From NCBI GenBank assembly GCA_012517355.1, contig JAAYVD010000123.1, positions 1-64,000 of the forward strand: a DNA stretch of 64,000 nucleotides, read 5' to 3'. This document shows positions 11 through 63,969 of this stretch, one piece after another. The DNA comes from Candidatus Rifleibacteriota bacterium. Lineage in GTDB: Bacteria > Muiribacteriota > Ozemobacteria > Ozemobacterales > Ozemobacteraceae. The notes below the pieces were generated by a model, which was not told the DNA's origin, searched no databases, and saw only the letters and a list, made by a program, of their open reading frames with translations. Each line of letters opens with the position of its first letter. Position 1 is the first letter of the stretch. The position numbers and the translations under genes are program-made.

Positions 11-97
11 GAAGGGGCTTTGCCCCTTCACCCCACCAGGGCCGATGGCCCTGGACCCTTTCTGCTGGCGAGGTGAACGCTGACGCGTTCACCTCGC
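11..97. repeat. Cluster of short perfect palindromes (REP-like)
   Basis: Three perfect inverted repeats follow one another: arms 11-18/22-29 (GAAGGGGC), 37-43/47-53 (CAGGGCC) and 68-80/85-97 (13-bp arms, GCGAGGTGAACGC). They resemble the intergenic palindromes found in many GC-rich genomes. A T8 run at about 134 could belong to a terminator of a gene to the left, but I cannot pair a stem with it. The rest of the gene-free stretch, to position 552, shows no convincing gene; a weak TGTGATACACT motif near 506 could be the promoter of the next gene. Confidence 0.6.
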
Positions 98-552
98 GGA
101 AGCTCCGCTTCGCGGTTCGTTTGCCCTGGACCGGACGGTAGTTTTTTTTCGTTGGGGGGGAACCACCCTCGCCGCCAGTCCGGGCGCCCAGTGCCGGCGC
201 GTCCGATGGCGATGGAGTCCATCGGCAATCAGCGAGGGGCGACGGTCAAAGGGTCCGGCTGCAGGACCGGGATCGGAACTCCCGCCGGTTGACGGGTGGG
301 AAACAGGGCAAACCCCCTATGGATACAGATCCCCCTGGCTTGTTCGAGAACTCTTGGAACGTTCAGCCTCGAAATCCCCCTGGCATACTGCCGGGATTTC
401 CCTGGATCCAGGAAAATGGCCTGGGCGAGGCACGCATCTTGGCCCGGGACCTGGGCCGGGCATCATGCTTCCTGGAGCCATCTCTCCCTGGCAAGAGAGG
501 GTGGGGTGTGATACACTGGCCGCGTACATCCAGAACCATCGGGAGGTCGCAC

Positions 553-7203: not shown

Positions 7204-7283
7204 CCCGTTGGCGATGTGCGCTGCGGTTGTTTCACGCCCGTCCGTGGCGGCCAAGGGGAAGTTCCGACATCGTGCCGTTCGGG
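7204..7283 (-). repeat. Copy of the 78-bp hairpin repeat (intergenic)
   Basis: The reverse complement of this stretch aligns along its length with the copies at 59306-59388 and 28584-28666. Shared blocks are CACGATGTCGGAA (CACGACGTCGGAA elsewhere), GCCGCCACGG and GTGAAAC...GCGCACATCGCCAA. Several hairpin arms have decayed. The copy lies directly upstream of the extended -10 promoter at 7290. The rest of the divergent gap 7057-7420 holds only the two promoters. Confidence 0.7.
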
Positions 7284-9636: not shown

Positions 9637-12210
9637 TCAATTTTCTTCGGTGGGTACTAATTCAAAGTTGAAGCTCAGGGCGGGCTGTTCGGAGGCCGCC
9701 TCGGCGGGGGCGGGCCGGCCCGGCAGCGCCGGCCGGGCGGCCAGGGGGGGGTAGTAGGTCAGCGCGGCCCCGGGGAAGGCGGCGAGGTCGGCCGGGGTGG
9801 CGGCCAGCGCCTTCATGGCCAGCGACCCGGCCAGGGCGGTGGCGCGGCCCCCCTCGAACCGGAGCCGGCCGTTGGCCACCAGGCCGGCCTGGATCTCGGT
9901 CCCGTCGGGGCCGGTCAGTCGGATGTCCCCGTGCAGGGCGGCCAGCTGCAGGATGGCGTGCGGCCGTTGCCCCGCCAGGGGGCGGATGGACGCCCCGATG
10001 ACCAGCTCGCCCTCCTCGAGGTGGATCCCCCCGTTGCCGAGGTAGGAGAGCGGCCGGTCGAGGACCAGGCGACCGGACGGCGACCGCACCAGGATCAGCC
10101 CGTCCAGGGACAGCACGCCGTTCCAGAGCAGGCCCCGCCGCTGCAGGGCGGTCCACAGGTCCACGTCCGGGCCGGCGGGGATGGTCAGCACGTAGGCATA
10201 CCGGCTCTGGTCGCGGATGGGGGCGAGGAAAGGGGCCATCTCGCGCAGCGAGGTCACCCCGGGCAGGCCCCGGAAGGCTTCGGGCACGGCATGCTTCTCC
10301 TCGTCGGTGGCGTCGCCCTTGCAGAACCGTATCAGAGGGTCCGAGTCGGGGAAGGCGGTCCAGGGGTCGGGCACCGTCCGGTTGTGGGCGAACGGCACTG
10401 CCAGGTTGACCTGGCGCGGCCCGATGAACGAGGAATGGCGCATGATGTATTCCCCCAGCGAGTCCGCGGTGCCGGAGATCAGCCCCGCCTCGCGCAGCAG
10501 GGCCAGCTTGCCGTTGGGGATGGTGCTTTCCATCTGGAATTTGAGCGGGTCCTCGTACAGGAACAGCCGTTCCCGGGCCCGGACCTGGTTCCAGGGCGGG
10601 CCCCGCAGCCGCTCGCTCTGGTACAGGCGCGCCATCAGCACGTGGGCGGCCACGTTGCCCAGCACCAGCGTCGGCGACCGGTTGGCATCGACCCCGTTGA
10701 GCCGGAAGACCGAACTCTCCTGCATGTGGTAGGAATCACGGAACAGCGGCCAGAAACGGGTCGAGGCCTCCTGCCGGATCAGGTCGTAGAACAGCCTGAC
10801 GTTGTCGTGGGAACTGGGGGAACAGCCGATCTCCATCTGGTAGAACCGCAGGTCGCCACCCCCCGGCAAGGGGGCGTATCCGCACCACCAGAACCCGTCC
10901 CCTCCCGATTTGCGGAACAGCTGGAAGCCTTCGCCGTGCGTGGCGTCGAGCCCGGTGGCCGGCGAGTAGGCGAGGTTCAGCCGCAGCTCCGTCGGTCCGC
11001 CCAGGTAGACCAGGCCCCGTGGGGCTTCCACGAACCGGTCCATCGTGGTCTCGACCGTCAGCGGGCCATTGGGCGACCCGGGACCGTCGTTGTCGAGGAT
11101 CAGCGGGGCGGCGGGGGAGTCGGGCATCAGGGCCCCGTTCTCGTCCACGCGCACCCGGTTGTACTCGTAGGTGGTCGTCGACTCGGGAAACCCCGCGTTT
11201 TCGACGTAGAGGGTGAACTTCGACAGGACCGGGGTCAGCGGGGCGACCACCTTGACCGGGCAGACATAGGAGAACTCCTCCGAGAGCGCCTGGCCCCCCG
11301 GCTTCTGCAGTTCGAGCCGGACGAGCAGCCGGATCCTCCCCTTCTTCTCGCGTCGGAACCCGGCCCCCGCCAGCCCGAACTCCTGGAAGTCCTCGGGCTG
11401 GCACCGGTAGCGGATGTGGAACACGAACTGCCCCATCCGCGCCAGCGGCCCGGTGATGTCCTGCGTGATCGTCTCGAGGTCGCTGGTCGGCACCTCGCCC
11501 AGGTCGACCTCCCCCTCGACGGGATCCATTTCGGCCCGTGGCCGCGCCAACTGCTGAAACAGCGGGAACAGGGACTCGGAATCGCTCTCCCGCTCGGGGA
11601 AGCTGCCCCCCGAATTCGCCGCCAGCAGCGGGCCGAACTGGATCTTGTGGACGGCCAGCGTGGCCAGCGACCGGGCCACCCGCGACAGCAGGTGCTGGCG
11701 GGTTCCCCGCGCCCGCAGCCGCCGTTGTGACTGCATGTAGTTCAGGTATCCCACCGCGTACAGGGCGATGCAGAACAGCAGTCCCAACGCCAGCAACAGA
11801 ATCGAGCCCCGCCGCCCCGCCCGGACGGCGGCCCCCTGGCCAGGCGAAAACCCGGCGCTTCGCGCCGTCACCCGCGGCGGCGTGGGGAAATTGCCGGCCT
11901 TGCAGGGGTCGGGGCGGTGTCTGGAGACCGCGCCAGCCGTCGCCGCAGGGGCGGGCATGCCCTGACCCCCGACCGCCGACAGACCGACTCCCAGTCCTCT
12001 CGCGCAACGGGAAATTCGCGCGGACCTCCGCGACGGCAGGAGGGGCCTGCCGGCGTCATGTCGGTCGGGGCGCGGCTTGGGCACCGCTCCTGCCGAGGCA
12101 GGAGCAGCATTACTGTCCCGACTTCCGATCGTCTGCCGGTCTGGACGTCGGCGGGGCAGGGGCTTGCCGGGGGAGTCGGGAGCCGGGTTCAGGGAGCCGG
12201 GTTCGGCCAT
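9637..12210 (-). CDS. Large PilX/GspK-like membrane-anchored protein with repeat-derived N-terminal extension
   Basis: An 857-residue protein. Its single hydrophobic segment (about 135-158, RRGSILLLALGLLFCIALYA) and the following YLNYMQSQRRLRARG helix resemble the N-terminus of PilX/GspK-type minor pilins. A large ectodomain (about 170-857) has no motif I recognise. Residues 1-134 are unlike any pilin leader: they are Arg/Pro-rich and made of about four units of 25-26 residues, encoded by the 78-bp repeats at 11839-12150. ATG 12210 has an excellent Shine-Dalgarno (GGGAGG, 5 bases away), so the extension appears to be translated; an internal ATG at 11958 lies inside the third unit and has a weak ribosome site. 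The start overlaps the preceding gene by 22 bases. With this extension, normal prepilin peptidase processing looks doubtful. Confidence 0.75.
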   Translation of the reverse strand: MAEPGSLNPAPDSPGKPLPRRRPDRQTIGSRDSNAAPASAGAVPKPRPDRHDAGRPLLPSRRSARISRCARGLGVGLSAVGGQGMPAPAATAGAVSRHRPDPCKAGNFPTPPRVTARSAGFSPGQGAAVRAGRRGSILLLALGLLFCIALYAVGYLNYMQSQRRLRARGTRQHLLSRVARSLATLAVHKIQFGPLLAANSGGSFPERESDSESLFPLFQQLARPRAEMDPVEGEVDLGEVPTSDLETITQDITGPLARMGQFVFHIRYRCQPEDFQEFGLAGAGFRREKKGRIRLLVRLELQKPGGQALSEEFSYVCPVKVVAPLTPVLSKFTLYVENAGFPESTTTYEYNRVRVDENGALMPDSPAAPLILDNDGPGSPNGPLTVETTMDRFVEAPRGLVYLGGPTELRLNLAYSPATGLDATHGEGFQLFRKSGGDGFWWCGYAPLPGGGDLRFYQMEIGCSPSSHDNVRLFYDLIRQEASTRFWPLFRDSYHMQESSVFRLNGVDANRSPTLVLGNVAAHVLMARLYQSERLRGPPWNQVRARERLFLYEDPLKFQMESTIPNGKLALLREAGLISGTADSLGEYIMRHSSFIGPRQVNLAVPFAHNRTVPDPWTAFPDSDPLIRFCKGDATDEEKHAVPEAFRGLPGVTSLREMAPFLAPIRDQSRYAYVLTIPAGPDVDLWTALQRRGLLWNGVLSLDGLILVRSPSGRLVLDRPLSYLGNGGIHLEEGELVIGASIRPLAGQRPHAILQLAALHGDIRLTGPDGTEIQAGLVANGRLRFEGGRATALAGSLAMKALAATPADLAAFPGAALTYYPPLAARPALPGRPAPAEAASEQPALSFNFELVPTEEN
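11839..12150 (-). repeat. Array of about four 78-bp hairpin repeats inside a pilin-like gene
   Basis: On the coding strand, units begin at about 12147, 12072, 11994 and 11916, which is a period of 75-78 bp or 25-26 codons. RPDR/RPDP recurs at residues 22, 47 and 99, with a decayed unit at about 73. The second unit is the best match to the copies at 28584 and 59306 (GACCGACATGACGCCGG, GCCG-CGCGGAGG, GCGCGAATTTCCCGTTGCGC). The first unit keeps GACCGGCAGACGATCGGAAG and then diverges into a palindrome (CTCCTGCCTCGGCAGGAG). All units keep the gene's frame. Confidence 0.75.
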
Positions 12211-22055: not shown

Positions 22056-22136
22056 GCAGGACCTCCTGGAACGGGGAAATCGGAAGGACGTTGCGCGCAT
22101 GGTACCCGAACCCGCCCCCGCCGACAATACCACCGC

Positions 22137-22203
22137 GAATTCCGGGGACACATGACTTAACTGCGCAAAAAGCGGGCAATTAAGTCATGTGTCCCCGGAA
22201 TTC
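22137..22203. repeat. Perfect 24-bp inverted repeat (GGGGACACATGACTTAA family)
   Basis: Arms 22137-22160 and 22180-22203 are exact reverse complements, separated by 19 bases. The arms contain CGGGGACACATGACTTAA, also found with variations in five places at 63.6-63.9 kb. The arm is followed by a run of GGAATTCC-type palindromes to about 22265. The motif resembles the text I associate with REP-type transposase neighbourhoods; no transposase gene is present here. Together these occupy the gap 22056-22327. Confidence 0.75.
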
Positions 22204-22327
22204 CCGGAATTCGGCGGAATCCGGAATTCCGGAATTCCGGAATTCGCGCGGAATTCGCGAAATTCGAAATCTCGCTCCGGGCGGTGGGCGCGGGACTTCC
22301 GGGATTCCCCATCCCTGGCAGGAAGGG

Positions 22328-24553
22328 TCAGACGTTCTTCAGCTTGATCTGGACGCGGCCCTTCTGCAACTGGGCGTCCCGCTCGCGTTCGTGGAAGATG
22401 ATGTAGTTGCGCTGGATCAGGTCGTCGACGAGGTTCTCGATCTTGCTGAACCGGTAGCGGTCGTCGTCATACTTCGGGCCCAGCTCGATGAACTTGTTGT
22501 CCTCGATGAAGAACAAATACTGCATGACCGAGAAGATGCCTTCGGGCGCGTCGCGGTTCTTGTCGAGGTAGAGGTTCACCACGTCGACGCGGGGGATGCG
22601 GGTGGCGTCCTTCCCCAGTTCTTCGGCCTTGTGGGCGAGCTGGGCGGCCAGTTCCTTGGTGTCGCCCCAGTCCTTGGCCTGGATCATGGCGCAGTCGAGG
22701 TCGTATTCGAGGTCGCCCGATCCCTTGCAGTGGTACATGGTCGGCCGCTCGGCGGTGGGGTTGGCGTCGATCATGCAGCCTTCCTTCGACAGCGAGCTGA
22801 TCGTCATGATCGGGTTGTTCAGCTCGATCGACAGGGCTTTCAACTCGGTCGAGATCTCCTCGACCTTGAACTTCTCGTCGTTGTAGGTGCGCGACAACGG
22901 CATCTTCTGGATGTAATCGACGAAGATCATGATGTCTTCGGTGTTGAAGTCCTGCATCACGTTGTAGGCGTAGGAGCGGATGCGGTCGATGGTGTCGACC
23001 TTGGTCGCCTCGATGATGTAGAAGTAGTCCATGTAGGCCTGCATGCGCTTCCAGCCGCCCATGAACTTGGCGTCCATGATCATGTCGGACCGCACCTTCT
23101 TGCGCTGCAGCGAGTCGGGATTGAGCCGGCTCTCCTTGGCCAGCAGGCGGTAGGTCAGGTTCTTCTTCGTCTGCTCGTAGGTGAAGAACAGCACCGGGAT
23201 CTTGCAGTTGGTCGCGACGGCGGTGGCCAGTTCGAGGGTGAAGGTGGTCTTGCCGCGCCGCGGGGCGCCGGCGATGGCATACATGAACCCGCGCCGGAAC
23301 CCGGAGATGGCCACGTTCAGGTAGTGGAACGGCTCGAACGAGTAGCCGATGATCTCGACCTCGCCGTTGATCTCGCGCTGGTCGATGTCCTTGATGATCT
23401 CCTTCATCTCGTCCTTGATGAGGTTGATCCGCTTGGTGGTCTTGGCCTTCTGGACGTTGCGCAGATCCTCGATGACCCCGTTGGTGAAGTTCTCGAGGGT
23501 GGAGGTGCCGGTGGGCGGGTTCTCGATGTAGGCCGAGATGTTCTGCGAGATCTCCTTCAGCTTCCGCCGCAGGGCCTGCTCCTTCATCAGTTCCATGTAG
23601 TGCAGGACCTGGTCGAGGGTCGGGCAGGGCTGCGCGATCACGCGGTTGAGGAAATTCTGCATCGGCATGTCGAACAGGCCCATCTGCTTGAGCTTGTTCT
23701 TGATGACGATCTTGTCGATCAGCGAGCCTTCGCGGTTCTCCTCGCGCAGGGCGAGGACCGCCTTGCACAGGGCGCGGGAGTACTTGGTCCCGAACAGTTC
23801 GATGACCAGCCCCTTGGTGGTGGCCGCCTCGAGGATGTAGTTGTCGTTCAGCAGCCCGGCCAGGACGGCGCATTCCATCTCCTCGTCGCCGAATCCCGTC
23901 ACCTGGGAGGAAAACACCCCGGCCGGCTCGCCCGGCTCGCCTCCGACGGCCTCGCGTTCCTGGGTCGACTGGCGCTTCTGGAGCTCCATGCCCGGGGTGA
24001 CCGGCCGCGAAGCGGCGGCCGTGGGGGCGGCCATGCTGGGGGAACCGCCGGTTGGCGCGGCCTTGGGGGCCACCCGGGTCGGGGCGGCCGTGCCGGGGGT
24101 CTCGCGGGGAGGCTGGGAAACCGCCTGGGAGCCGCTCTGGGGCGGGGCCATGCCTGGCGTTCCCGCTTTGGCGCGCAGGGAGGCCATGATGGGCGACGAG
24201 GGCCCCGACCCCGCGGCGGGCGCGCCGCCGACGGGGGGGACGGGGGCCGTGGGGATGACCGGCGTCGGGGCCGGGGCGGGGGGGTCGGCTTCGGGGGCCG
24301 TGGTTGGGAGGTCCCCGGACAGGTCGAGCGGGGGAGGAACGTCTGGCTCCGCCGGTGGTAAAGCCGGCTGGGGCGGCGGGGGAGCGGCCTGCGGCGCCCG
24401 GGCGGGCGGGGCGGCGGGAGCGTTGGGGGACTCACCCGCTCCGGGTTTGGAAAGGAGCCCCTTGAGGGAGAAACCGCCGCCGGCGGACTTCTGGCAGAAG
24501 GGGCACTTCCCGCTGAGGGGGAGTTCCCGCTGACATTCCGGGCACTTTGCCAC
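22328..24553 (-). CDS. DnaB-type replicative helicase with N-terminal zinc ribbon
   Basis: A 741-residue helicase of the DnaB (RecA-fold, SF4) family. Parts in order: a zinc ribbon with two CxxC pairs (C4, C7, C17, C20); a Pro/Ala-rich linker (about 30-225); a DnaB N-terminal-like helical domain (about 228-345, EEMECAVLAGLL...); and the motor domain (about 375-735) with Walker A AGAPRRGKTT (about 425-435) and Walker B MIFVDYIQKM (about 541-550). DnaB unwinds DNA at replication forks; typical DnaB is 450-500 residues and lacks the ribbon and linker. The start is GTG 24553, supported by AGGAGG six bases upstream. The frame is open much further, into bamA territory, but that part is a shadow. 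Whether this is the main replicative helicase or a paralogue cannot be told from this window. Confidence 0.85.
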   Translation of the reverse strand: MAKCPECQRELPLSGKCPFCQKSAGGGFSLKGLLSKPGAGESPNAPAAPPARAPQAAPPPPQPALPPAEPDVPPPLDLSGDLPTTAPEADPPAPAPTPVIPTAPVPPVGGAPAAGSGPSSPIMASLRAKAGTPGMAPPQSGSQAVSQPPRETPGTAAPTRVAPKAAPTGGSPSMAAPTAAASRPVTPGMELQKRQSTQEREAVGGEPGEPAGVFSSQVTGFGDEEMECAVLAGLLNDNYILEAATTKGLVIELFGTKYSRALCKAVLALREENREGSLIDKIVIKNKLKQMGLFDMPMQNFLNRVIAQPCPTLDQVLHYMELMKEQALRRKLKEISQNISAYIENPPTGTSTLENFTNGVIEDLRNVQKAKTTKRINLIKDEMKEIIKDIDQREINGEVEIIGYSFEPFHYLNVAISGFRRGFMYAIAGAPRRGKTTFTLELATAVATNCKIPVLFFTYEQTKKNLTYRLLAKESRLNPDSLQRKKVRSDMIMDAKFMGGWKRMQAYMDYFYIIEATKVDTIDRIRSYAYNVMQDFNTEDIMIFVDYIQKMPLSRTYNDEKFKVEEISTELKALSIELNNPIMTISSLSKEGCMIDANPTAERPTMYHCKGSGDLEYDLDCAMIQAKDWGDTKELAAQLAHKAEELGKDATRIPRVDVVNLYLDKNRDAPEGIFSVMQYLFFIEDNKFIELGPKYDDDRYRFSKIENLVDDLIQRNYIIFHERERDAQLQKGRVQIKLKNV

Positions 24554-24655: not shown

Positions 24656-24970
24656 CAGACCGGCACGATGCCGGCCATACCCCCTGATCATCTCCTTCCA
24701 TCGGCGTGGAGACCCTGGTTCTCGCCTTGCCAGGAGGCCGACCGGGACGAGGTTGGATGGGCTTCCCCCTTTGCGGCCAAAGGCGGCGCGCAACGCCCGT
24801 TTCGCTCCGCGCCAGGAGGCCCACCGACACGTTGCTGTCTTCAACCCTGGCGACCCAGGAGGGCGGGGCGATACGGACGGTTCGCGCCCGGCCAGACGGT
24901 CCTCTCCTCCGTGCCCTGGTTGTGGCCGGGAAACGGGCATCCCAGGCGGTTGCCCTTGGCCGTCCCACCC
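24656..24970 (+). repeat. Tandem array of diverged 78-bp hairpin repeats between divergent promoters
   Basis: Units start at about 24656, 24738 and 24812 (spacing 82 and 74), each beginning GACCGG-ACGA or CACCGACACG. The second unit is clearest: GGCGGCGCGCAACGCCCGTTTCGC matches the hairpin core of the copy at 28584-28666. The third keeps CCGACACG, GGCGGGGCGATACGGACGGTTCGCGC. A fourth, much decayed unit may extend to 24970. The array fills the space between the helicase promoter and the bamA promoter and includes no supported gene (gap 24554-25045). Confidence 0.6.
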
Positions 24971-25045: not shown

Positions 25046-26758
25046 ATGACCAGAAGAACCACCCGTCTCCTCCCGCTGGTGATGCTGATCGTCGTGGCTC
25101 TCCTCCCCGCCGCCCGGGCGCTCGAAAGCAATCTCGTCATGGGCTTCGCGGTCGAGGGGAACAAGATGATCGCCGAGAAGACCATCCTGCTCAACGTGGG
25201 GATGAAAGCCGGCGACCGCCTGACCCCAGAGGCCATCCAGGCCGAGATCGGCCGCCTCGGCGAGATGGGGTATTTCTCCTACGTCGGGGCCGAAGTGCGG
25301 CCGGGCGACAAGGGCAAGACCCTCGTCTTCAAGGTCGAGGAGAACGCCATCATCGGGGAGATCGAGATCAAGGGCTGCACCAAGGTGAGCGACGACAAGA
25401 TCCGCGAGGCGATGGAGAGCAAGACCGGCACGGTCTTCAATTCCAAGCTGCTGACCCAGGACATCCAGAACGTGAACGAACTCCTGGCCCGGCACGGGTT
25501 CCTGTTCTCGAAGGTCAGCGACGCCTACGTCAAGGACAAGGGCAGCAAGATCTTCGTCGAGATCACCGAGGGCGTCCTGACCGAGATCCGGGTCGAGGGC
25601 CTGAAGAAGACGAAGGAAAAGGTGGTCCGCCGCGAGCTGACCGCCAAGCCCGGCCAGATCTACGACAACAACGTGATCGTCCGCGACCTGCAGCGCATCT
25701 ACAACCTCGGCTTCTTCGAGGAGGTCAAGCGCGACCACCTGCCCGGCGCCAAGCCGGAGGAAGTGGTCCTGTTGATCCAGGTCGTCGAGCAGAAGACCGG
25801 CCGGGCCGGGGTGGGTGGCGGTTACAGCTCCCTCAACGGCCTCGTCGGGTTCGCCAACCTCTCGCAGAACAACTGGCGGGGCGAAGGCAAGCGGGTCTAC
25901 CTGAAGACCGAGTTCGGCGGCCTGCGCACCTACGAGCTGGGCTATTTCGACCCCTGGCTGAACAACAAGCCCCGCAGCCTCGGCGTCGATCTCTACAGCA
26001 CCAAATACACCCGCAACCTCTACGCCGCCGGCAACACCCTCACCGAATACGACGAGGAACGGCGCGGCGGCAACATCATCCTCGGCCGGCGCCTGCGGCG
26101 CGACATCGACCTGTCCTTCCGGTTCCGCGACGAGGACGTCAAGATCACTCCCACCGACTCCACGGCCAGCCAGCCGCTCGGCGTGGTCGATGGCCGCCTG
26201 CAGACCTTCGGCATCGTCCTCGACAAGGACACCCGCGACAACCGCTTCCGCCCCAGCGGCGGGGTGCACGATTCCTTCTGGGTGGAAACCACGGGCGGCG
26301 TCCTGCGCGGCGACAACCAGTATACCAAGTATGTCCTGGCCCTCCGGCGCTATGTCCCCGTCAGCAAGGGCGGTCGCACCGTCTTCGCCTTCCAGGGCGT
26401 CGGCGGCCGCACCACCATCGGCAAGGGGTTCGTGCCCATCTACGACATGTTCTCGGTCGGCGGCAGCGACACGGTGCGCGGCTACCGCGAGCGCGAGTTC
26501 CTCGGCACCAAGATCCTCTACGGCAACTTCGAGCTGCGCCAGCGCATCGCCAAGAACTTCGACGTGGTCGGGTTCTACGACATGGGCAGCGTCTGGGGCC
26601 TCGACTACAACCGGATCAACCGGGATTTCGACATGAAACGCGGCGTCGGCATCGGCATCCGCCTCCAGACCCCGCTCGGCCCGGTCGCGATCGACCACGC
26701 CAAGGCCTCCGACCGCGGCGACGGCCGCACCTACTTCAATTTCGGCAGTTCGTTCTGA
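25046..26758 (+). CDS. bamA: BamA outer-membrane protein assembly factor (three POTRA domains)
   Basis: A 570-residue Omp85-family protein: signal peptide 1-25 (cleavage near ARA-LE), three POTRA domains (about 28-98, 99-175 and 176-251), then a C-terminal 16-strand-type barrel with the family VRGY motif in GSDTVRGYRER (about 472-482) and a terminal Phe (GSSF). BamA folds and inserts beta-barrel proteins in the outer membrane. Proteobacterial BamA has five POTRA domains and about 800 residues, so this is a short form. The next genes (ompH/skp, lpxD, lpxC-fabZ, lpxA) are the classic partners of bamA, which argues for BamA rather than TamA. It is driven by the promoter at 24979. Confidence 0.92.
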   Translation: MTRRTTRLLPLVMLIVVALLPAARALESNLVMGFAVEGNKMIAEKTILLNVGMKAGDRLTPEAIQAEIGRLGEMGYFSYVGAEVRPGDKGKTLVFKVEENAIIGEIEIKGCTKVSDDKIREAMESKTGTVFNSKLLTQDIQNVNELLARHGFLFSKVSDAYVKDKGSKIFVEITEGVLTEIRVEGLKKTKEKVVRRELTAKPGQIYDNNVIVRDLQRIYNLGFFEEVKRDHLPGAKPEEVVLLIQVVEQKTGRAGVGGGYSSLNGLVGFANLSQNNWRGEGKRVYLKTEFGGLRTYELGYFDPWLNNKPRSLGVDLYSTKYTRNLYAAGNTLTEYDEERRGGNIILGRRLRRDIDLSFRFRDEDVKITPTDSTASQPLGVVDGRLQTFGIVLDKDTRDNRFRPSGGVHDSFWVETTGGVLRGDNQYTKYVLALRRYVPVSKGGRTVFAFQGVGGRTTIGKGFVPIYDMFSVGGSDTVRGYREREFLGTKILYGNFELRQRIAKNFDVVGFYDMGSVWGLDYNRINRDFDMKRGVGIGIRLQTPLGPVAIDHAKASDRGDGRTYFNFGSSF

Positions 26759-27523: not shown

Positions 27524-28567
27524 ATGGCCGTAACCCTGGAGGAACTGGCCCGCATCCTGGGCGGCCGGCTCGACGGCCCCGCCCCTGGCCCCGCCATCTC
27601 CGGCATCGCCTCCATCGCCGAGGCCGGCCCCGGCCAGATCACCTTCCTGGCCGGCGTCAAGAACGTCCAGAAACACCTGGGGGAACTCGCCGCCACCCGC
27701 GCCGCGGCCGTCATCGCCGCCGACCAGGCGGGCCCGCTTCCCCTCCCGGCCATCCGCTTCCCCGCCCCCTACCAGGGTTTCCTGGCCGCGCTCACCTTCT
27801 TCCATCCCGCCGAACCGCTGGTGCCGGGCATCCACCCCACCGCCTTCGTCCACGAGGAGGCGGTGGTCGATCCCGCCGCCATGATCGGACCGCTCGCCGT
27901 GGTCGAGGCGGCCGCCGTGATCGGGCCCCGCGCCCGGCTAGACGCCCAGGTCTTCGTCGGCCGGGGGGCGCGGGTCGGCGCCGGTTCCCGGCTGTATCCC
28001 CAGGTCGTCCTGCGCGAGGGCTGCACGGTGGGCGAACACTCCATCATCCATTCCGGCACCGTCCTCGGCAGCGACGGGTTCGGCTACCACTCCACCGCCG
28101 CCGGGCACGACAAGATCCCCCAGGTGGGCATCGTCGAAATCGGCGACCGCGTCGAGATCGGGGCCAACGTCACCATCGATCGGGCCACCATGGGAAAAAC
28201 CAGGGTCGGCGACGGCACCAAGATCGACAACCTCGTCCACCTCGCCCACAACGTCCAGGTCGGCCGCGACTGCATCATCGTCGCCCAGGTCGGCGTCTCG
28301 GGCAGCACCGTCCTCGAGGACCGCGTGACCCTCGCCGGCCAGGCCGGCACCGTCGGCCACGTCACGGTCGGACGCGGCACCACCGTCGCCGCGCGCGGCG
28401 TGGTCACCCACGACGTGCCCCCCGGCCAACTGGTGTCGGGGTTCCCCCTCAAACCGCACGCCGAGGAGAAGCGCATCATGATGGCCCTGCGCAAGCTGCC
28501 CGAGCTGATCAAGACGGTCAGGCACCTGGAGCAGGAACTGGACCGGCTGAGGAAGAACGATGAATAG
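27524..28567 (+). CDS. lpxD: UDP-3-O-acylglucosamine N-acyltransferase LpxD
   Basis: A 347-residue enzyme that adds the N-linked hydroxyacyl chain from acyl-ACP to UDP-3-O-acyl-glucosamine in lipid A synthesis. It has the LpxD N-terminal uridine-binding domain (1-105, TLEELARILGGRL...), a left-handed beta-helix of hexapeptide repeats (about 108-310) and a C-terminal helix. The catalytic His is in HLAHNVQVG (H242, matching H239 of the E. coli enzyme). Length is normal. GGAGG lies about ten bases upstream of the start. Its last eight bases overlap the next gene. Confidence 0.95.
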   Translation: MAVTLEELARILGGRLDGPAPGPAISGIASIAEAGPGQITFLAGVKNVQKHLGELAATRAAAVIAADQAGPLPLPAIRFPAPYQGFLAALTFFHPAEPLVPGIHPTAFVHEEAVVDPAAMIGPLAVVEAAAVIGPRARLDAQVFVGRGARVGAGSRLYPQVVLREGCTVGEHSIIHSGTVLGSDGFGYHSTAAGHDKIPQVGIVEIGDRVEIGANVTIDRATMGKTRVGDGTKIDNLVHLAHNVQVGRDCIIVAQVGVSGSTVLEDRVTLAGQAGTVGHVTVGRGTTVAARGVVTHDVPPGQLVSGFPLKPHAEEKRIMMALRKLPELIKTVRHLEQELDRLRKNDE

Positions 28568-29318
28568 ACGCCCTGCCCCGCCCCCGACCGACAGGAGGTC
28601 GGAAGTGCCCCCTTGCCGCCACGGAGGGCGGCGCGAAACCCCCGTTTCGCGCATCGCAAAGGGGCCGTCCCGCGCCCTGCTGCTCCTGGCCTTCGTCCTG
28701 GCCCTGGCCGCCGCCTTCTGCAGTGGCCCCGTCGCGGCCAGCCCCGAAGCGGACACCGGTTTCCGCCTGCGCTACATGGGGTCGGGCTGCCTGTCCATCC
28801 CCACCGGATACTGCCGTACCGAAGCGGCTTACATCAGCGACGACAGCCATTCCCTCACCCAGATCGCCCAGCAGGTGCTGGGGAAGTTCGCCGAACTGTC
28901 CATGGTCCGCCACCTCAACGGGACCCACAAGAACGAGAACGTCCTCAACCTGAAGGTCAATATCCTCGAGGAGGGTGACTACCTGCCGAACCTTGTCTGG
29001 GGGGTGTCCGACTTCCAGACCGAACTGGGCTCGAAGATCTTCTACGTCGCCGGCTCCAAGACCGTCGATGCCTTCGGGGTGACCATCCACGCCGGCATCT
29101 ACAAGGACCCGGTCACCACCGACAAAAAGGAATTCTTCGGTCTGGAAAAGACCATCCTGCCCCTGGTGGTGGCCGCCGGCGAACGGATCGACGGCAAGAC
29201 CACCGCCGGTCTGAAGATCCGGCCCTATCCTGGGGTCAGCGTCGAATACGCGCGCCGCCTCGATGCCAACGACGACCAGGCCAGCCTCTACCGGCTGGTC
29301 TATCTCCGCTCCTTCTGA
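28560..29318 (+). CDS. Exported protein of unknown function within the lpx cluster
   Basis: A 252-residue protein. Residues about 10-37 are encoded by a copy of the 78-bp hairpin repeat (PTDRRSEVPPCRHGGRRETP...), directly followed by a hydrophobic signal segment (about 41-58, ALLLLAFVLALAAAFCSG). The mature part (about 62-252) is predicted to be beta-rich with alternating polar and hydrophobic residues and ends in an aromatic residue (YLRSF), as outer-membrane barrels do; a small outer-membrane barrel is therefore possible. The ATG overlaps the lpxD stop by eight bases, so translation is coupled. Without the repeat the signal peptide would have a normal length. I do not recognise a family; its position suggests a role in envelope biogenesis. 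Confidence 0.7.
   Translation: MNRRPAPPPTDRRSEVPPCRHGGRRETPVSRIAKGPSRALLLLAFVLALAAAFCSGPVAASPEADTGFRLRYMGSGCLSIPTGYCRTEAAYISDDSHSLTQIAQQVLGKFAELSMVRHLNGTHKNENVLNLKVNILEEGDYLPNLVWGVSDFQTELGSKIFYVAGSKTVDAFGVTIHAGIYKDPVTTDKKEFFGLEKTILPLVVAAGERIDGKTTAGLKIRPYPGVSVEYARRLDANDDQASLYRLVYLRSF
28584..28666 (+). repeat. Well-preserved 78-bp hairpin repeat inside an exported-protein gene
   Basis: One copy in the same orientation as the gene. Hairpins: CCGAC...GTCGG, GCCGCC...GGCGGC, and the perfect GCGCGAAAC-CCCC-GTTTCGCGC. It begins 24 bases after the start codon and ends just before the signal-peptide core, and it is read without a stop. Confidence 0.85.
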
Positions 29319-29481: not shown

Positions 29482-29523
29482 TTCACCACCGAGATCACCA
29501 CCGAGATCACCACCGAGTTCACC
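29482..29523 (+). repeat. 12-bp tandem repeat in the lpxC leader
   Basis: Units (A/T)TCACCACCGAG at 29482, 29494 and 29506 plus a half unit at 29518; looser CACCGA-containing units continue to the lpxC start codon. The whole stretch 29319-29563 is low in G and contains no Shine-Dalgarno. Confidence 0.75.
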
Positions 29524-29563
29524 AGACGATTTCACCGACGAGCCCATCACCGAGCCCCCACCG

Positions 29564-30853
29564 ATGACTGACGACCGCCAGTGCACCATTCGCGATCCCT
29601 TCACCATCGAAGGGACCGGCCTGCACACCGGCAATCCCGCCCGCCTGACCGCCCGTCCCGGCGATCCCGGCCAGGGTATCCTCTTCCGTCGCCTCGATCT
29701 GCCTGGCCAGCCGGTCATTCCTGCCCGCATCCCGCAGGTGGTCGAGGTCCAGCGCGGCACCACCCTGGCGGCCGGCGAGGCCCGGGTCCATACCGTCGAG
29801 CACCTCATGGCCGCCGTCTACGGCCTGGGCATCGACAACCTCTGGCTCGACCTCGACGGCCCCGAACCCCCCGCCGTCGACGGCAGCGCCCGCCCCTTCG
29901 CCGAGGCCCTCCGCGCCGCCGGTCGTCACCCCCAGGACCTGCCGCGCGAGACCTGCCGGCTGTCCGAGATGTTTTCGATCGAGGAAGGGGACCGCAGCCT
30001 GACCTACCTGCCCGCCGACCGGTTCGAGGTCACCTTCACCCTGGCCTATGCGGGGAACCTCATCCCCCCCCAGACCGTCCACCTGGTCGTCGACGAGGAC
30101 CGTTTCTACGACCGCATCAGCCGCGCCCGCACCTTCGGCTTCGTCCACGAATTCGACATGCTCAAGGAGAAACGCCTCGCCCGCGGCGCCAGCCTGGCCA
30201 ACGCGGTCGTCGTCAATCCGGACGGCACCTGCATGAACCCTGAAGGGACCCGCGATCCCCAGGAGTTCGCCCTCCACAAAATCCTTGACCTGATTGGCGA
30301 TTTGGCGTTAATAGGAAAGAGGCTGCAGGGCCATGTCATCGCCCACAAGACCGGGCACGCCTACAACTGCCGGTTCGCCCGCCGCTTGTGCCAGTTGCAC
30401 CAGGAGACCCGTGAAAGGAAGCCCACCGGCATGATGACCTACGAAGAGATCAAGACCATCCTTCCCCACCGCTACCCCATGCTCCTGATCGACAAGATCC
30501 TGTCGCTCGAGCCCGGCAAGTCGGCGGTCGGCGTGAAGAACGTCACGGGGAACGAGGAGTTCTTCCAGGGGCATTTCCCCCAGCGGGCCGTCATGCCCGG
30601 CGTCCTGCTCATCGAGGCGATGGCCCAGGTGGCCGGCGTCCTGTTCCTGTCGCAGCCCGAGCACAAGGGCAAACTGCCCTTCTTCGTCGGCATCGACCGG
30701 GTCCGCTTCCGGAAGCCCGTCGTTCCCGGTGACCGCCTCGAACTGCGCGTCGAGGTACTGAAGGTGCGGGGAAACACTGGCAAGGTGGCTGTCGAGGCGC
30801 GGGTGGAGGGTGAGGAAGTCACCGCCGCCGAACTGATGTTCACCATCGTCTGA
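29564..30853 (+). CDS. lpxC/fabZ: Fused LpxC deacetylase / FabZ dehydratase
   Basis: A 429-residue bifunctional protein. Residues 1-288 are LpxC, the zinc enzyme that removes the acetyl group from UDP-3-O-acyl-GlcNAc, the committed step of lipid A synthesis. The zinc ligands H80, H238 and D242 and the catalytic H265 are all present (VEHLMA; HKILD; AHKTGH). Residues about 290-429 are FabZ, 3-hydroxyacyl-ACP dehydratase, with H337 (GHFP) and E351 (IEAMAQ). Such fusions are known from Bacteroidetes and some other phyla. I chose ATG 29564 because it places the zinc ligands at near E. coli numbering; a TTG at 29426 in frame would add only a Pro/Ser-rich leader. Neither start has a recognisable ribosome-binding site. 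It precedes lpxA. Confidence 0.93.
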   Translation: MTDDRQCTIRDPFTIEGTGLHTGNPARLTARPGDPGQGILFRRLDLPGQPVIPARIPQVVEVQRGTTLAAGEARVHTVEHLMAAVYGLGIDNLWLDLDGPEPPAVDGSARPFAEALRAAGRHPQDLPRETCRLSEMFSIEEGDRSLTYLPADRFEVTFTLAYAGNLIPPQTVHLVVDEDRFYDRISRARTFGFVHEFDMLKEKRLARGASLANAVVVNPDGTCMNPEGTRDPQEFALHKILDLIGDLALIGKRLQGHVIAHKTGHAYNCRFARRLCQLHQETRERKPTGMMTYEEIKTILPHRYPMLLIDKILSLEPGKSAVGVKNVTGNEEFFQGHFPQRAVMPGVLLIEAMAQVAGVLFLSQPEHKGKLPFFVGIDRVRFRKPVVPGDRLELRVEVLKVRGNTGKVAVEARVEGEEVTAAELMFTIV

Positions 30854-57208: not shown

Positions 57209-58006
57209 TCAGGGTTCCTTTTCGGAACTGGTGAAGTGGATGGCCCCCTGTTCGATCCTGATCTCTTTGAGGTTCAAACGGAAGGGGAACTTCTTCAGAT
57301 TTAGGACGGGGTTGATCTTCTTGACGATCGTCCCGATGAAGGCGCGGGGCATGCTCAGGTTGTTCATCTTCATGTTGCGGGCATGGAACCAGATCTCCTG
57401 GCCGTCGTGGATCGAGAACCCGCCCGAGGCCCAGAACTTGACCTTGACGAATCCGTAGCGGGTGGAGCCCTGCAGTTCCATCTTGTCCGGTTGCAGGTCG
57501 ACGCGGGGGTTGTCGACCTTGATGCCCTTCGACTTGGCGACGAGGAAGGCGTTCAGGTCGGCTTCCAGGATGGTGACGTTCATGTCGATGTTCTTCACCT
57601 GGACCACGTCGATCTTCTCTTCCTTCACCAGCTTGGTGGTATCGAGCTGGACGTCGTGGAAGTCGATGTCGGCTCTCTCGAGCACCAGGTTGTCGACGTT
57701 GCCGCGCGCCTCGCGGACGCTGATCAGGTCGACGAACCCGCGGCTGCGGGCGACGGGATCGCGCGTGGTGACGGTGATGGTCAGGGTGGCGGGGTCTTTC
57801 AGGACCTTGCGCATGGCCAGGTCGAGCTGGCGCTCGAGAAGGCCGGGGTCGGAGGCGAGACGGGCGGTGATCTCGGGGTCTGGGGTCCAGCTGGCCACGG
57901 CCGGTCCGGAGGCGGCTTCGGCCCAGGCCAGGCGGGGGGCGGCGGCCAGGCAGAGGATGACGAGCAAGGCGAGGGGGAAGATGCTCATGGCGGTGGGGCG
58001 GCTCAT
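57209..58006 (-). CDS. Exported DUF2993-like (LmeA-type) lipid-binding protein
   Basis: A 265-residue protein with signal peptide 1-29 (AWAEA) and a mature domain of alternating amphipathic strands, with VDLISVREARGNVDNLVLER, ADIDFHDVQLDTTKL and PRAFIGTIVKKINPVLNLKK. This is the pattern of DUF2993/LmeA-type proteins, whose extended beta-sheet binds lipids. It would act in the periplasm, perhaps in lipid trafficking, which fits the nearby permease gene of LptF/G type. ATG 58006 has AAGGAGA upstream and overlaps the preceding stop by four bases (ATGA). Confidence 0.7.
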   Translation of the reverse strand: MSRPTAMSIFPLALLVILCLAAAPRLAWAEAASGPAVASWTPDPEITARLASDPGLLERQLDLAMRKVLKDPATLTITVTTRDPVARSRGFVDLISVREARGNVDNLVLERADIDFHDVQLDTTKLVKEEKIDVVQVKNIDMNVTILEADLNAFLVAKSKGIKVDNPRVDLQPDKMELQGSTRYGFVKVKFWASGGFSIHDGQEIWFHARNMKMNNLSMPRAFIGTIVKKINPVLNLKKFPFRLNLKEIRIEQGAIHFTSSEKEP

Positions 58007-59988
58007 CGCCGGTCTCCTTCCACGATGGGGGTGCCGTAACCGCCGTGGGGCACGCGCGGCAGCAGGTCGAGCCAGGCGTCCCAGAGGGTCAGGCCGCGCC
58101 GGCCGGAGGGGCGGGCGGCGCCCAGAAACGGCTGGACGACGGGGTCCAGATACAGGTTGGCATCCATCATGACCCGGTACTTCTTCGCATCCTCGATCGG
58201 CCGGTCCTGCACGGTCGCCGGGCGGGGCACCCCGCCCAGGAAACGGGCCCAACCGCCGGCCAGGCCGATCCTGAAGGGAAAGGTACCACGTCCGATGGCG
58301 AAAAACAACGTCTTCAACACCTTTCCCGACACCTGGTACTCGCGCAGATACCGGTTTTCGAAGCGGGGCAGCAGGACGGCCGGGGAAAGGGCGCGTTCGT
58401 CCCCGGGGGGCTCGTCGGCGACGGCCACCAGCCCCAGGTCGGAACGGCCGGCCGTCTTCGCCAGGCAGGCATGGAAGGTCGGGGACAATCGGTAGAGGCT
58501 GCGGGCGGCGAGGTCGCGGGTCGACAGGTAGTAACGGGGGGTCTGCCAGTCCTTCCGGAAGAGGGCGAGGTGCGGGGCCCCAAGGGCCTCGCCGGCAGCC
58601 TCGAGGCGGGCGCGGTCGAGGGGGAACCGGTGCCACCGCTCGGCGTCGGGGGCCCCTTCCCGGCTTTCGCGGCGGTACACCGAGACCTCGGTGCCGAACG
58701 GGGCGATCTCCCAGACCGTTGGTTCGGGCCGGGGTTCGGGGGGGGCGGCGAAGCAGTCGCGGCGGCGCGGCGGCGGCGGGGCGGGGGGATAGGCGGCTCC
58801 CAGGCCGAGACGGCGCGGGGAAGGCGGCTGTTCCTTGGCGGTGCGCGAAACATCCGTTTCACCCTGCCAACCGTCGCGGCGAAAGGGCTCTTCCGGAAAC
58901 GGGCCGGTCGGCCCCTTTGCGATGCGCGAAACGGGCGTTTCGCGTCGCCATTCGTGTCGGCCCAGGGGCCCTTCCGGCCTCGTGTCGGTCGGCTTCTCCG
59001 GCGTGGCCGCGGCCAAATCGGCGGGCGGCCCGACCAGCAGGAAGCGGGCGCGGGGGTCGGCTTCGGCGAGCAGTTCCCGCAGGTCGCCACCGTCGAGATG
59101 GCAGACCACCAGCAGCACATCGGCGCCGGCCAGGTCGGGCCGCAGGCGTCGCAGGCAGCGCGCGGGGTTTTCCGCGCCCTCGATGCCCCATTCCCGGGTC
59201 GGGAGGTCGGCCAAAAATGCAGTGCTGATCAGGCTCAGCACCGCGATCGAGCGTCCGCCCGCCGCTACCATTTGGAAGGGGGGGAACAGGCGGGATCCGG
59301 GGTCGGCCCCTTGGCGATGCGCGAAACTGGTGTCTCGCGCCGCCAGCCGTGGCGGCAATGGGGCCCTTCCGACGTCGTGTCGGTCGGGCTCGAAGGGCTG
59401 GTCCGTGGCGCCGGTGACGGGTAGCGGGTTCGACCACACGCGGTCGTGGATTGCCGGATCGAGTCTCTTCGCCTGGCGGAACCGGGCCAGGTCGGCGGGG
59501 CCGAGGCAGCGGACGGCCGGGCGGCAGGCGGCGGCGAGGGCCTCCTCGAGTTGCCCGTTCATCAGGACCGACGAGGGGGAGAGGATCGAGTAGTCGTTCC
59601 CGACGCCGATCACCAGTGTTTCCCAGGGGCGCTCGCGGCGCAGGGCGTCGAGCAGGGCCGGGATCTGCCACGGGGGCGCGGGAACGGGGTCGCCCTGCCG
59701 GTCGAACCCGACGAGGGCGCCCTGGAGGTTCCCGACCAGGGCGATCTGGAGCGGAGCGCTCGCCCCCCGGGCCGGTTCCGGCCAGCCCAAGGTGGCGGCC
59801 AGGAGCAGGAGAACGCCGACGAAGGCGGTCCGGCAGCGGGGCAGGAGGGTGGCCGGGCCGGTCGGGTGGATGGTGGGTGCCTCAGAAGCCCGACCGGCGG
59901 TGGGGCGGTGGTGGGCGGCAAAGGTGGCGGTCGTCCGGGAAGACGGAGGAGGGGGCGGGACGGCGGGCCGGAGACGGCGCTCAGGCAT
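58003..59988 (-). CDS. Degenerate 5'-nucleotidase (UshA)-like protein with in-frame repeat insertions
   Basis: A 661-residue protein. A hydrophobic signal segment (about 54-72, [20 protein letters not shown]) comes after a 50-residue Pro/Arg-rich extension. Parts after it follow the metallophosphatase/5'-nucleotidase plan: [17 protein letters not shown] at the usual 'NDxHG' site, [14 protein letters not shown] at the 'GD' site, and a C-terminal part (about 540-640; [20 protein letters not shown]) like a 5'-nucleotidase C-terminal domain. Key metal ligands seem to be missing, so catalysis is doubtful. Residues about 201-228 and 333-386 are encoded by copies of the 78-bp repeat, read in two different frames. 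The start overlaps the permease stop by eight bases. Family assignment is tentative. Confidence 0.55.
58832..58992 (-). repeat. Two tandem 78-bp hairpin repeats inside a gene
   Basis: Copies 58832-58911 and 58912-58992, head to tail. Each has the GCGCGAAAC...GTTTCGC hairpin (with changes) and the GTGTCGG or CCGGTCGG end. On the minus strand they encode [13 protein letters not shown] and [13 protein letters not shown], 27 residues apart. Confidence 0.85.
59306..59388 (-). repeat. Single 78-bp hairpin repeat inside a gene
   Basis: Contains GCCGCCAGCCGTGGCGGC (7-bp stem), GCGCGAAAC-TGGT-GTCTCGCGC and CCGAC...GTCGG. It has the same orientation as the pair at 58832 but is read in a different frame ([20 protein letters not shown]). 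Confidence 0.85.
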
Positions 59989-63553: not shown

Positions 63554-63575
63554 GATGAAGGAAAAACGGGATTAC

Positions 63576-63945
63576 GGAGACACATGACTTCATCCCGAGG
63601 ACGGTGAATTCCGGGGAGTTCCGGGGAGTTTCGGGGACACATGACCAAATTCCGGAAACCTTGATGGAATTTCGGGAGTTTTGGGGACACATGACCAAAT
63701 TCTGGAAACCCTCATGGAATGTTGCGGGGGGGAGGGAATTTTGCACGTAGGTCTCCAACGGGACGGGGTTCAGGTTCTGCGAACGAGCGAAAACGGTTCC
63801 ACTTTGGGAAGGCGTTTTCCAGATGAGGGAAGGGTCCACCGAGGCGACCGGTTCGGGGCATTGGGAGATTAAGTCATGTGTCCCCGAAATTCCGCTGAGC
63901 TGTTTGGGGCAATGGGAGAATCAAGTCATGTGTCCCCGAAATTCC
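63576..63945. repeat. Element bounded by inverted copies of GGGGACACATGAC
   Basis: The left half has the motif in one orientation at 63576, 63632 and 63682 (the last two lie in a 50-bp direct repeat with CCAAATTC-GGAAACC). The right half has it inverted at about 63871 and 63922, in a 51-bp direct repeat (GGGGCA-TGGGAGA-T-AAGTCATGTGTCCCCGAAATTCC). About 150 bases in the middle are unrelated and hold no gene. The motif matches the arms of the inverted repeat at 22137. It fills the gap 63475-63969. Confidence 0.7.
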
Positions 63946-63969
63946 CGATTTTCTCCGGGAGGTGGGGGC

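Follow-up and report, generated by a model that had tools for sequence, protein, structure and literature searches.

An 83-nucleotide palindromic repeat of one Ozemobacteraceae genus, found ahead of the signal peptide of a gene between lpxD and lpxC

How does a gene come to carry a repeat between its start codon and its signal peptide, and how can it still be read? The question is raised by the gene between lpxD and lpxC in a stretch of 64,000 nucleotides (nt), here called the window, at the beginning of contig JAAYVD010000123.1 of a Candidatus Rifleibacteriota bacterium from the family Ozemobacteraceae. Within the part of this gene that encodes the n-region lies a palindromic element with many further copies in the same genome (Table 1). 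We consider it likely that a non-autonomous, self-folding repeat of 83 nt, which has multiplied in one Ozemobacteraceae genus, was inserted here between the lpxD-coupled start and the signal peptide.

The copy in this gene is the best preserved in the window, as a sequence-only reading of the locus had held. With an nhmmer profile built from the copies, it scores 79.6 bits and leads the ten copies of the window, the other nine reaching 24-74 bits; both this profile and our covariance model were built with this copy included. The element starts 24 nt downstream of the A of ATG 28560, whose overlap with the lpxD stop couples it to that gene, and after the element ends at 28666 there follow Ser-Arg and then ALLLLAFVLALAAAFC. 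The same reading had placed it in just this way, 24 bases past the ATG and two residues ahead of the signal-peptide core. The frame of the host gene is open for 252 residues, and there is no ATG, GTG or TTG between the element and the hydrophobic core. An addition of about 28 basic residues with the frame unbroken had also been claimed. The length (about 28 residues) and the open frame stand, but "basic" does not describe the whole insert, since only 7 of its residues are Arg or Lys, with one His and three Asp or Glu. The host protein is called YjbH-like on the basis of a sub-threshold match to PF06082 (E=0.0062).

Relatives carry this gene without the block. The host protein has a match in 22 of 23 genomes of the same family and weaker matches in 6 of 15 genomes of the same phylum; a separate search for related loci with the host protein gave no relative. 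The family orthologues sit between lpxD and lpxC, though lpxD was not seen beside one of them (L008), which has no visible start and was omitted from the alignments. Most orthologue starts overlap the lpxD stop or fall within a few bases of it (the stop was mis-set by our custom script in L015 and L019). All 21 orthologues with a readable start have a short n-region; those of the two congeners, G001 and G002, start with MNRHSLLHSLAFWLAF and MMHRSPLLSRTALFLAV, and that of G010 with MNRLFSRSAKTILAIV. The comparison with relatives that the sequence-only reading had proposed thus came out in favor of an insertion: the 28-residue block is present in 0 of these 21 same-family orthologues, and no equally long, conserved extension of unrelated sequence was seen among them. 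It could be argued that the block resembles the repeat by chance, or that the host protein had an N-terminal extension from its ancestors, as long open frames come easily at a high G+C content (66-69% in the measured stretches of this genome). However, the region recurs elsewhere in the genome with a BLAST E-value of 4.6e-34, the reversed control gave no profile match, and the block is missing from every orthologue with a readable start. This explanation is already refuted, and we give it practically no weight.

The repeat is abundant in the genome to which the window belongs (G000; 7,114,650 bases in 184 contigs). BLAST with this region found at least 60 other places, the best at 93% identity over 95 nt (40 of 824 candidate areas scored). 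The profile found 310 copies in a sample of 2,352,719 bases and none in the reversed sequence. This sample covers 33% of the genome; larger contigs were taken first, and some of its stretches end at known copies. Extrapolation to the whole genome gives about 940, and this uncultured bacterium thus probably holds nearly a thousand copies of a self-folding repeat. The 22-nt palindrome core, with two or fewer mismatches, has 369 sites in the whole genome, and the same pattern written backwards has none. The 310 copies fall into 244 clusters, of which 193 hold one copy, 37 two, 13 three and 1 four, with a tandem period of 81 nt.

As found, the family is confined to one Ozemobacteraceae genus, where it is present in two of the three genomes examined. 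Neither congener has a site of the palindrome core, and of the 33 other genomes searched, 4 have one site each, with two mismatches. The covariance model, with up to 150 candidates scored per genome, gave at least 150 copies in G000, 11 in G002 and no match in 21 other genomes. A search for the 22-nt tag with two or fewer mismatches gave 311 occurrences in G000, 21 in G002, one in G036 and none in 36 others. An exact search of a collection of genomes from 84,980 species, from which the record of G000 itself may be excluded, returned seven stretches. Six belong to 'Candidatus Ozemobacteraceae bacterium isolate N1_Bin_METABAT__69_1', which is G002; the seventh, in a metagenome-assembled genome of the Clostridia, shares by eye the tag only. 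No copy was found in the virus contigs searched.

Table 1. Positions of the element, its host gene, neighboring genes and further copies (window coordinates unless a locus or contig is named)
Feature	Position	Strand	Remarks
Palindromic element, copy under study	28584-28666	+	83 nt, 81-nt tandem type; best BLAST E=4.6e-34; nhmmer 79.6 bits; covariance model 101.9 bits
Host gene	28560-29318	+	predicted exported YjbH-like protein, 252 residues, between lpxD and lpxC; element inside n-region
ATG start	28560-28562	+	8-nt overlap with lpxD stop; arrangement as in G010; GAGGAAG just upstream
5' tag hairpin CCGAC...GTCGG	28584-28602	+	common to 81-nt and 60-nt types
AGGAGG-6 nt-GTG, in frame within element	28593-28607	+	possible alternative start supplied by repeat
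Outer stem CCCCCTTGC / GCAAAGGGG	28608-28664	+	one C-A mismatch in this copy; encloses two hairpins, CGCC..GGCG and GCGCGAAAC..GTTTCGCGC
Signal-peptide hydrophobic core	28674-28715	+	ALLLLAFVLALAAA
lpxD	27524-28567	+	PF04613 E=1.3e-11 plus Hexapep
lpxC-fabZ fusion	29564-30853	+	PF03331 E=6.1e-87; PF07977 E=3e-32
Intergenic copy	7205-7282	-	44.1 bits
Diverged copy	11830-11912	-	before N-terminal hydrophobic helix of "pilin-like" gene 9637-11871(-); 38.9 bits, E=8.7e-10
Intergenic copy	11986-12068	-	41.7 bits
Three diverged tandem copies	24656-24896	+	between genes 22328-24553(-) and 25082-26758(+)
Two tandem copies	58832-58992	-	inside gene 58003-59988(-), variable proline-rich linker
Third copy in gene 58003-59988(-)	59305-59387	-	in frame; missing in 5 of 5 aligned relatives
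60-nt sister element	L108/L121 (G002 C204) 25-146		one copy in G000 at C34:46267

In order, the element consists of CCGACCGACAGGAGGTCGGAAGTG, an outer stem with two inner hairpins, and GGGGCC at its end. With default settings, RNAalifold gave a consensus without the outer stem, and pairing was counted on a structure given by hand. In this four-helix structure, 92.5% of cells are paired across 60 full copies, and 19 cells are altered on both sides, mainly in the outer stem, versus 9.8 +/- 2.4 in shuffles. Pair 33-81, for example, is U-A in 33 copies, C-G in 12, U-G in 5, G-C in 1 and unpaired in 9. A weaker measure, the number of pairs with change on both sides, is 5 versus 3.6, a value equaled or exceeded by 98 of 500 shuffles. 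In helix 2, 24 of 59 rows lack pair 35-79. We suggest that covariation lends modest support to the four helices. The single-strand folding of the copy in the lpx cluster is unremarkable (z -1.68), and Rfam has no match on the element, its sole match (12.9 bits, E=0.48) lying outside at 28542-28552. A sister element in G002 shares the tag hairpin but differs in its outer stem, has a single inner hairpin and shows a tandem period of 60 nt. It looks like a module exchange, in which the shared tag hairpin has been joined to a different stem.

Copies prefer intergenic DNA. Though 84.7% of the sample was called coding, 174 of the 244 clusters are intergenic; the rest are N-terminal (31), interior, with coding evidence on both sides of the cluster (27), C-terminal (6) or other (6). 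Genes in the sample were called by a custom script instead of a published program, and which clusters count as N-terminal depends on the starts that this script chose. Intergenic gaps with a copy are longer than others even after the copy is subtracted (median 265.5 vs 127 nt; G000 sample, 22 contigs). We claim no bias towards a replication strand (p=0.004 by copy, p=0.06 by cluster), nor do we build on the orientation in gaps between co-directional genes, where 62 clusters have the same orientation and 38 the opposite one (p=0.02).

The copies inside genes show the same behavior as the one in the lpx cluster, and three of these genes give further evidence of empty sites. In the gene at 58003-59988, the five relatives aligned come from ten other genomes with a match. 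A DegT aminotransferase (C19:64944-66230; PF01041 E=1.9e-100) holds a diverged copy, at which the alignment to PDB 1mdo passes from query residue 176 to 215 while the target goes from 177 to 180. MutY (C153:33046-34155, equal to L143:13046-14155) has one copy at its N-terminus and another between LPWRS and DPYA, both in frame; here the alignment to PDB 6q0c passes from query residue 50 to 96 and from target residue 32 to 35, its short first piece scoring only 4.7 bits. Some very long proteins (2147-2256 residues) have three separate copies each (L136:1172-7852 on C71; C79:15775-22545; C98:38602-45045).

Such read-through would be favored by the build of the element. The tandem periods of 81 and 60 nt are whole numbers of codons, and the typed consensus has zero stops across six frames. 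All six frames are open in 129 of 221 full copies versus 85 of 1105 base-shuffled copies, and any single frame is closed in 7-11% of full copies. Interior copies are read in frames A0 (12), S0 (8), S1 (6), A2 (3) and A1 (2), and N-terminal copies in S1 (14), A0 (13), S0 (7), A1 (4) and S2 (4). The three common frames fit the host codon model best, and the other frames are open as well. The use of several frames argues against a functional peptide and suggests a tolerance of hydrophilic, host-like inserts.

The position ahead of an export signal recurs in other genes. It had been pointed out for a "pilin-like" gene of the window, and a copy does lie directly ahead of the N-terminal hydrophobic helix there; the protein has no Pfam match at E 0.01, and "pilin-like" refers to the appearance of its N-terminus. 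Among the 31 N-terminal clusters, which represent 30 genes (MutY twice), 23 are followed within 50 residues by a hydrophobic core, 13 of them without a canonical start in between. With the same limit, such a core is found in 638 of 1578 background genes of at least 300 nt (p=3e-4); a 60-residue limit gives 666 of 1578 (p=7e-4), and three other thresholds give p values of 0.0015-0.012. When the 23 of 31 are compared with genes that have an intergenic copy within 150 nt upstream, 43 of 80 of which have a hydrophobic segment, p is 0.055, and it is 0.13, 0.20 and 0.07 at other thresholds. Thus, of the suggestion that pre-signal regions are favored or tolerated landing sites, tolerance is supported by these counts, and preference is unproven. 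In 51 gene-copy pairs among the upstream intergenic cases, the frame is open throughout the element, and start calling therefore matters. No copy end lies less than 13 nt from the predicted start in these 80 genes.

By eye, we could name a prepilin-like GFSLVE after three copies (C34:62575) and lipoprotein-like cores (C54:27315, C54:104611). At a second pre-signal locus, C19:76661-76903, three copies precede KGRAWWAIACLACFLLLAAIPADA; the G002 orthologue starts with MRRRSVHGVLMRLCLLVALGL, and the G001 start is uncertain. For the pre-signal genes on C54 and C124, relatives are too diverged, or their starts too uncertain, for empty sites to be given.

Several points weigh against an insertion as we describe it. 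The n-regions of the congeners have diverged too far to define an empty site to the base. The target-site duplications that the sequence-only reading had proposed to look for at the edges are absent: at lengths of 4-9 nt, none exceeded shuffled flanks in 51 isolated copies, the present one included (5-mers 6 of 51 versus 5.0 expected). That related copies are open in six frames reflects, for the most part, a single property inherited from a GC-rich consensus, and about 8% of shuffled copies are open too. An excess of openness over simulated mutation of the consensus (44 of 68 versus a mean of 28.6) was not used, as the copies are probably partly out of register (mean 18.7 differences). All 27 interior full copies are 80, 83 or 86 nt long, one class modulo 3, versus 117 of 149 intergenic copies, and this uniformity is partly by construction since the interior class was picked by its open frame. 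Thus, the usual length of the element is frame-compatible, and its uniformity is no proof of selection. Finally, the in-frame GTG 28605 stands behind a perfect AGGAGG inside the copy, and translation may start there.

In that case the repeat would have donated a start to the gene. Translation would run from GTG 28605, ATG 28560 would be dead or minor, and the element would serve in part as 5' leader and in part as about 21 residues of n-region. Our custom gene caller did pick 28605, and some other N-terminal copies contain an in-frame ATG or GTG (e.g., C124:85367 and C19:76817). In addition, PMC3733652 warns that many N-terminal repetitive extragenic palindromes (REPs) may be extragenic through mis-set starts. 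However, ATG 28560 preserves the lpxD overlap of the relatives and has a GAGGAAG of its own. Only 3 of 310 matches show the AGGAGG form, and it therefore looks like a chance feature of this copy; GAGG-6-GTG is found in 16 of 221 full copies. We regard donation of the start as possible and favor ATG 28560.

Selection offers another view of the same n-region: the added residues could be functional and alter export. Long n-regions change export in some autotransporters, the added peptide is basic in character, and N-terminal copies are enriched ahead of hydrophobic segments. Against this, N-terminal copies are read in five of six frames and so share no peptide, the three frames that lead among them also lead among interior copies, and no such extension exists in the 21 readable orthologues. 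A selected function is therefore very unlikely in our judgment, and we return to an insertion that was tolerated.

What could move such an element? At the flanks of isolated copies, C is found at -1 in 37 of 51, and G, T, C and C follow the 3' end in 30, 28, 42 and 39 of 51. Conserved bases at the ends, together with the lack of a target duplication, would suit a REP-type family mobilized in trans by the single Y1 transposase of the genome, similar to the REP-associated tyrosine transposases (RAYTs) or the terminal inverted repeat-associated ones (TIRYTs). G000 and G002 have one PF01797 gene each (that of G000 at C109:4387-4713), the two being 61% identical, and none was found in G001, which is without the element. 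However, no model match lies within the up to 1.5 kb searched on each side of the transposase genes of G000 and G002 (L040, L041), and the nearest copy in G000 is 6.6 kb from the C109 gene. PF01797 also occurs in 11 of 21 other genomes, none with a match to the element model, and the genus sample is three genomes. This mover is thus a somewhat doubtful candidate.

Another repeat, GGGGACACATGAC, is present in direct and inverted form at 22133-22212 and 63559-63954 of the window, with seven sites there and 29 in 2.35 Mb (at most one mismatch). With one mismatch it flanks a Y1 transposase gene in G029 (L033: 1338, 1368, 2154), and it does not flank the Y1 gene of G000. It fits the GGGGWSAS terminal-repeat motif stated for TIRYT genes in PMC3733652. 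Near the host gene, short imperfect ACCACCGAGATC-like tandem repeats are seen in the raw sequence at 29490-29530, ahead of lpxC, and the protein encoded at 29564-30853 joins LpxC with FabZ (a FabA-like domain).

The element is related in kind to two known groups of repeats, and we class it with neither. The Rickettsia palindromic elements (RPEs) are described as palindromes of about 100-150 bp that lie between genes and in frame within unrelated protein genes, where they encode solvent-exposed parts (PMC10969869, PMC2229807, PMC3767692). Like them, the present repeat is palindromic and lies in frame, within the lpx-cluster gene, the gene at 58003-59988, the DegT aminotransferase and MutY. Unlike them, it is 83 nt long, its host belongs to another phylum than the Rickettsiales, and it has an estimated 940 copies, which are mostly intergenic, are read in several frames, form tandem arrays and are accompanied by a sister type of 60 nt; many of the N-terminal copies lie ahead of export or membrane segments. 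This comparison is one of descriptions and not of sequences.

According to PMC3733652, intragenic REPs of the GTAG and CGTC superfamilies are short palindromes in many copies, mostly intergenic, in dimers or arrays and sometimes in frame; many sit at NH2 termini with doubtful status, and CGTC REPs have no dedicated transposase. Our element resembles them in being a short palindrome with many copies, mostly intergenic, in arrays and sometimes in frame and N-terminal. However, REPs are described there as single hairpins of 20-40 bp, one end of which has an unpaired GTAG or CGTC, whereas the element has four helices in 83 nt, neither tag at its 5' end and a consensus without GTAG. There is no REPtron either, as the single PF01797 gene is not flanked by copies. 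The CGTC REP of that description, with a terminal unpaired CGTC, a stem of 8-9 bp and a CCA tail, differs in stem number, size and tag position, even though G, T, C and C are common after the 3' end of isolated copies.

In enterobacteria, the enterobacterial repetitive intergenic consensus (ERIC) and the YAPL/RU-2 miniature inverted-repeat transposable elements (MITEs) have open reading frames fused in frame with host genes, and in Yersinia a predicted signal peptide is partly made up of one YAPL fusion (PMC2229807). There, the MITE itself gives the hydrophobic signal residues, whereas the present element precedes an existing signal peptide. MITEs of this kind usually have TA ends or target duplications. 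The element has no target-site duplication in the isolated copies, and CCGACC and GGGGCC, at its two ends, are not inverted repeats of each other, unlike the ends of MITEs of DDE transposons. In the open-access literature on the host group, Rickettsia elements, signal-peptide insertions and repeats in genes, no description of the element was among the matches listed.

We hypothesize the following course of events. The repeat would have entered the gene that lies between lpxD and lpxC, at a point past the lpxD-coupled start and ahead of the signal peptide. The gene stays open and would be read through because the unit of 81 nt is a whole number of codons and its consensus is stop-free in six frames. 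Read-through would add about 28 mostly hydrophilic residues to the n-region of a product that is presumably still made. These residues would then be removed with the cleaved signal peptide, leaving the mature protein unchanged, and the insertion would be near neutral. The family may have multiplied recently, its copies perhaps moving as a folded single strand without target duplication. A stronger view is that the repeat is adapted to harmless translation through its whole-codon units, its freedom from stops in six frames and its potential starts, and that it repeatedly rewrites exported n-regions. We think this unlikely; if true, export signals in the genus evolve through repeat insertion.

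In-frame palindromic repeats are best known in Rickettsia and some REP-rich species. Here, a large family of them is found in a distant, uncultured group, with element-bearing sites that are empty in congeners. A practical consequence is that gene starts near such repeats are easily mis-set in annotation. A single genome offers tens of candidate in-frame peptide insertions, both in conserved enzymes and just before signal peptides. Thus, this genus could be used for testing how proteins absorb foreign peptides and whether the mobility of a repeat rewrites export signals.
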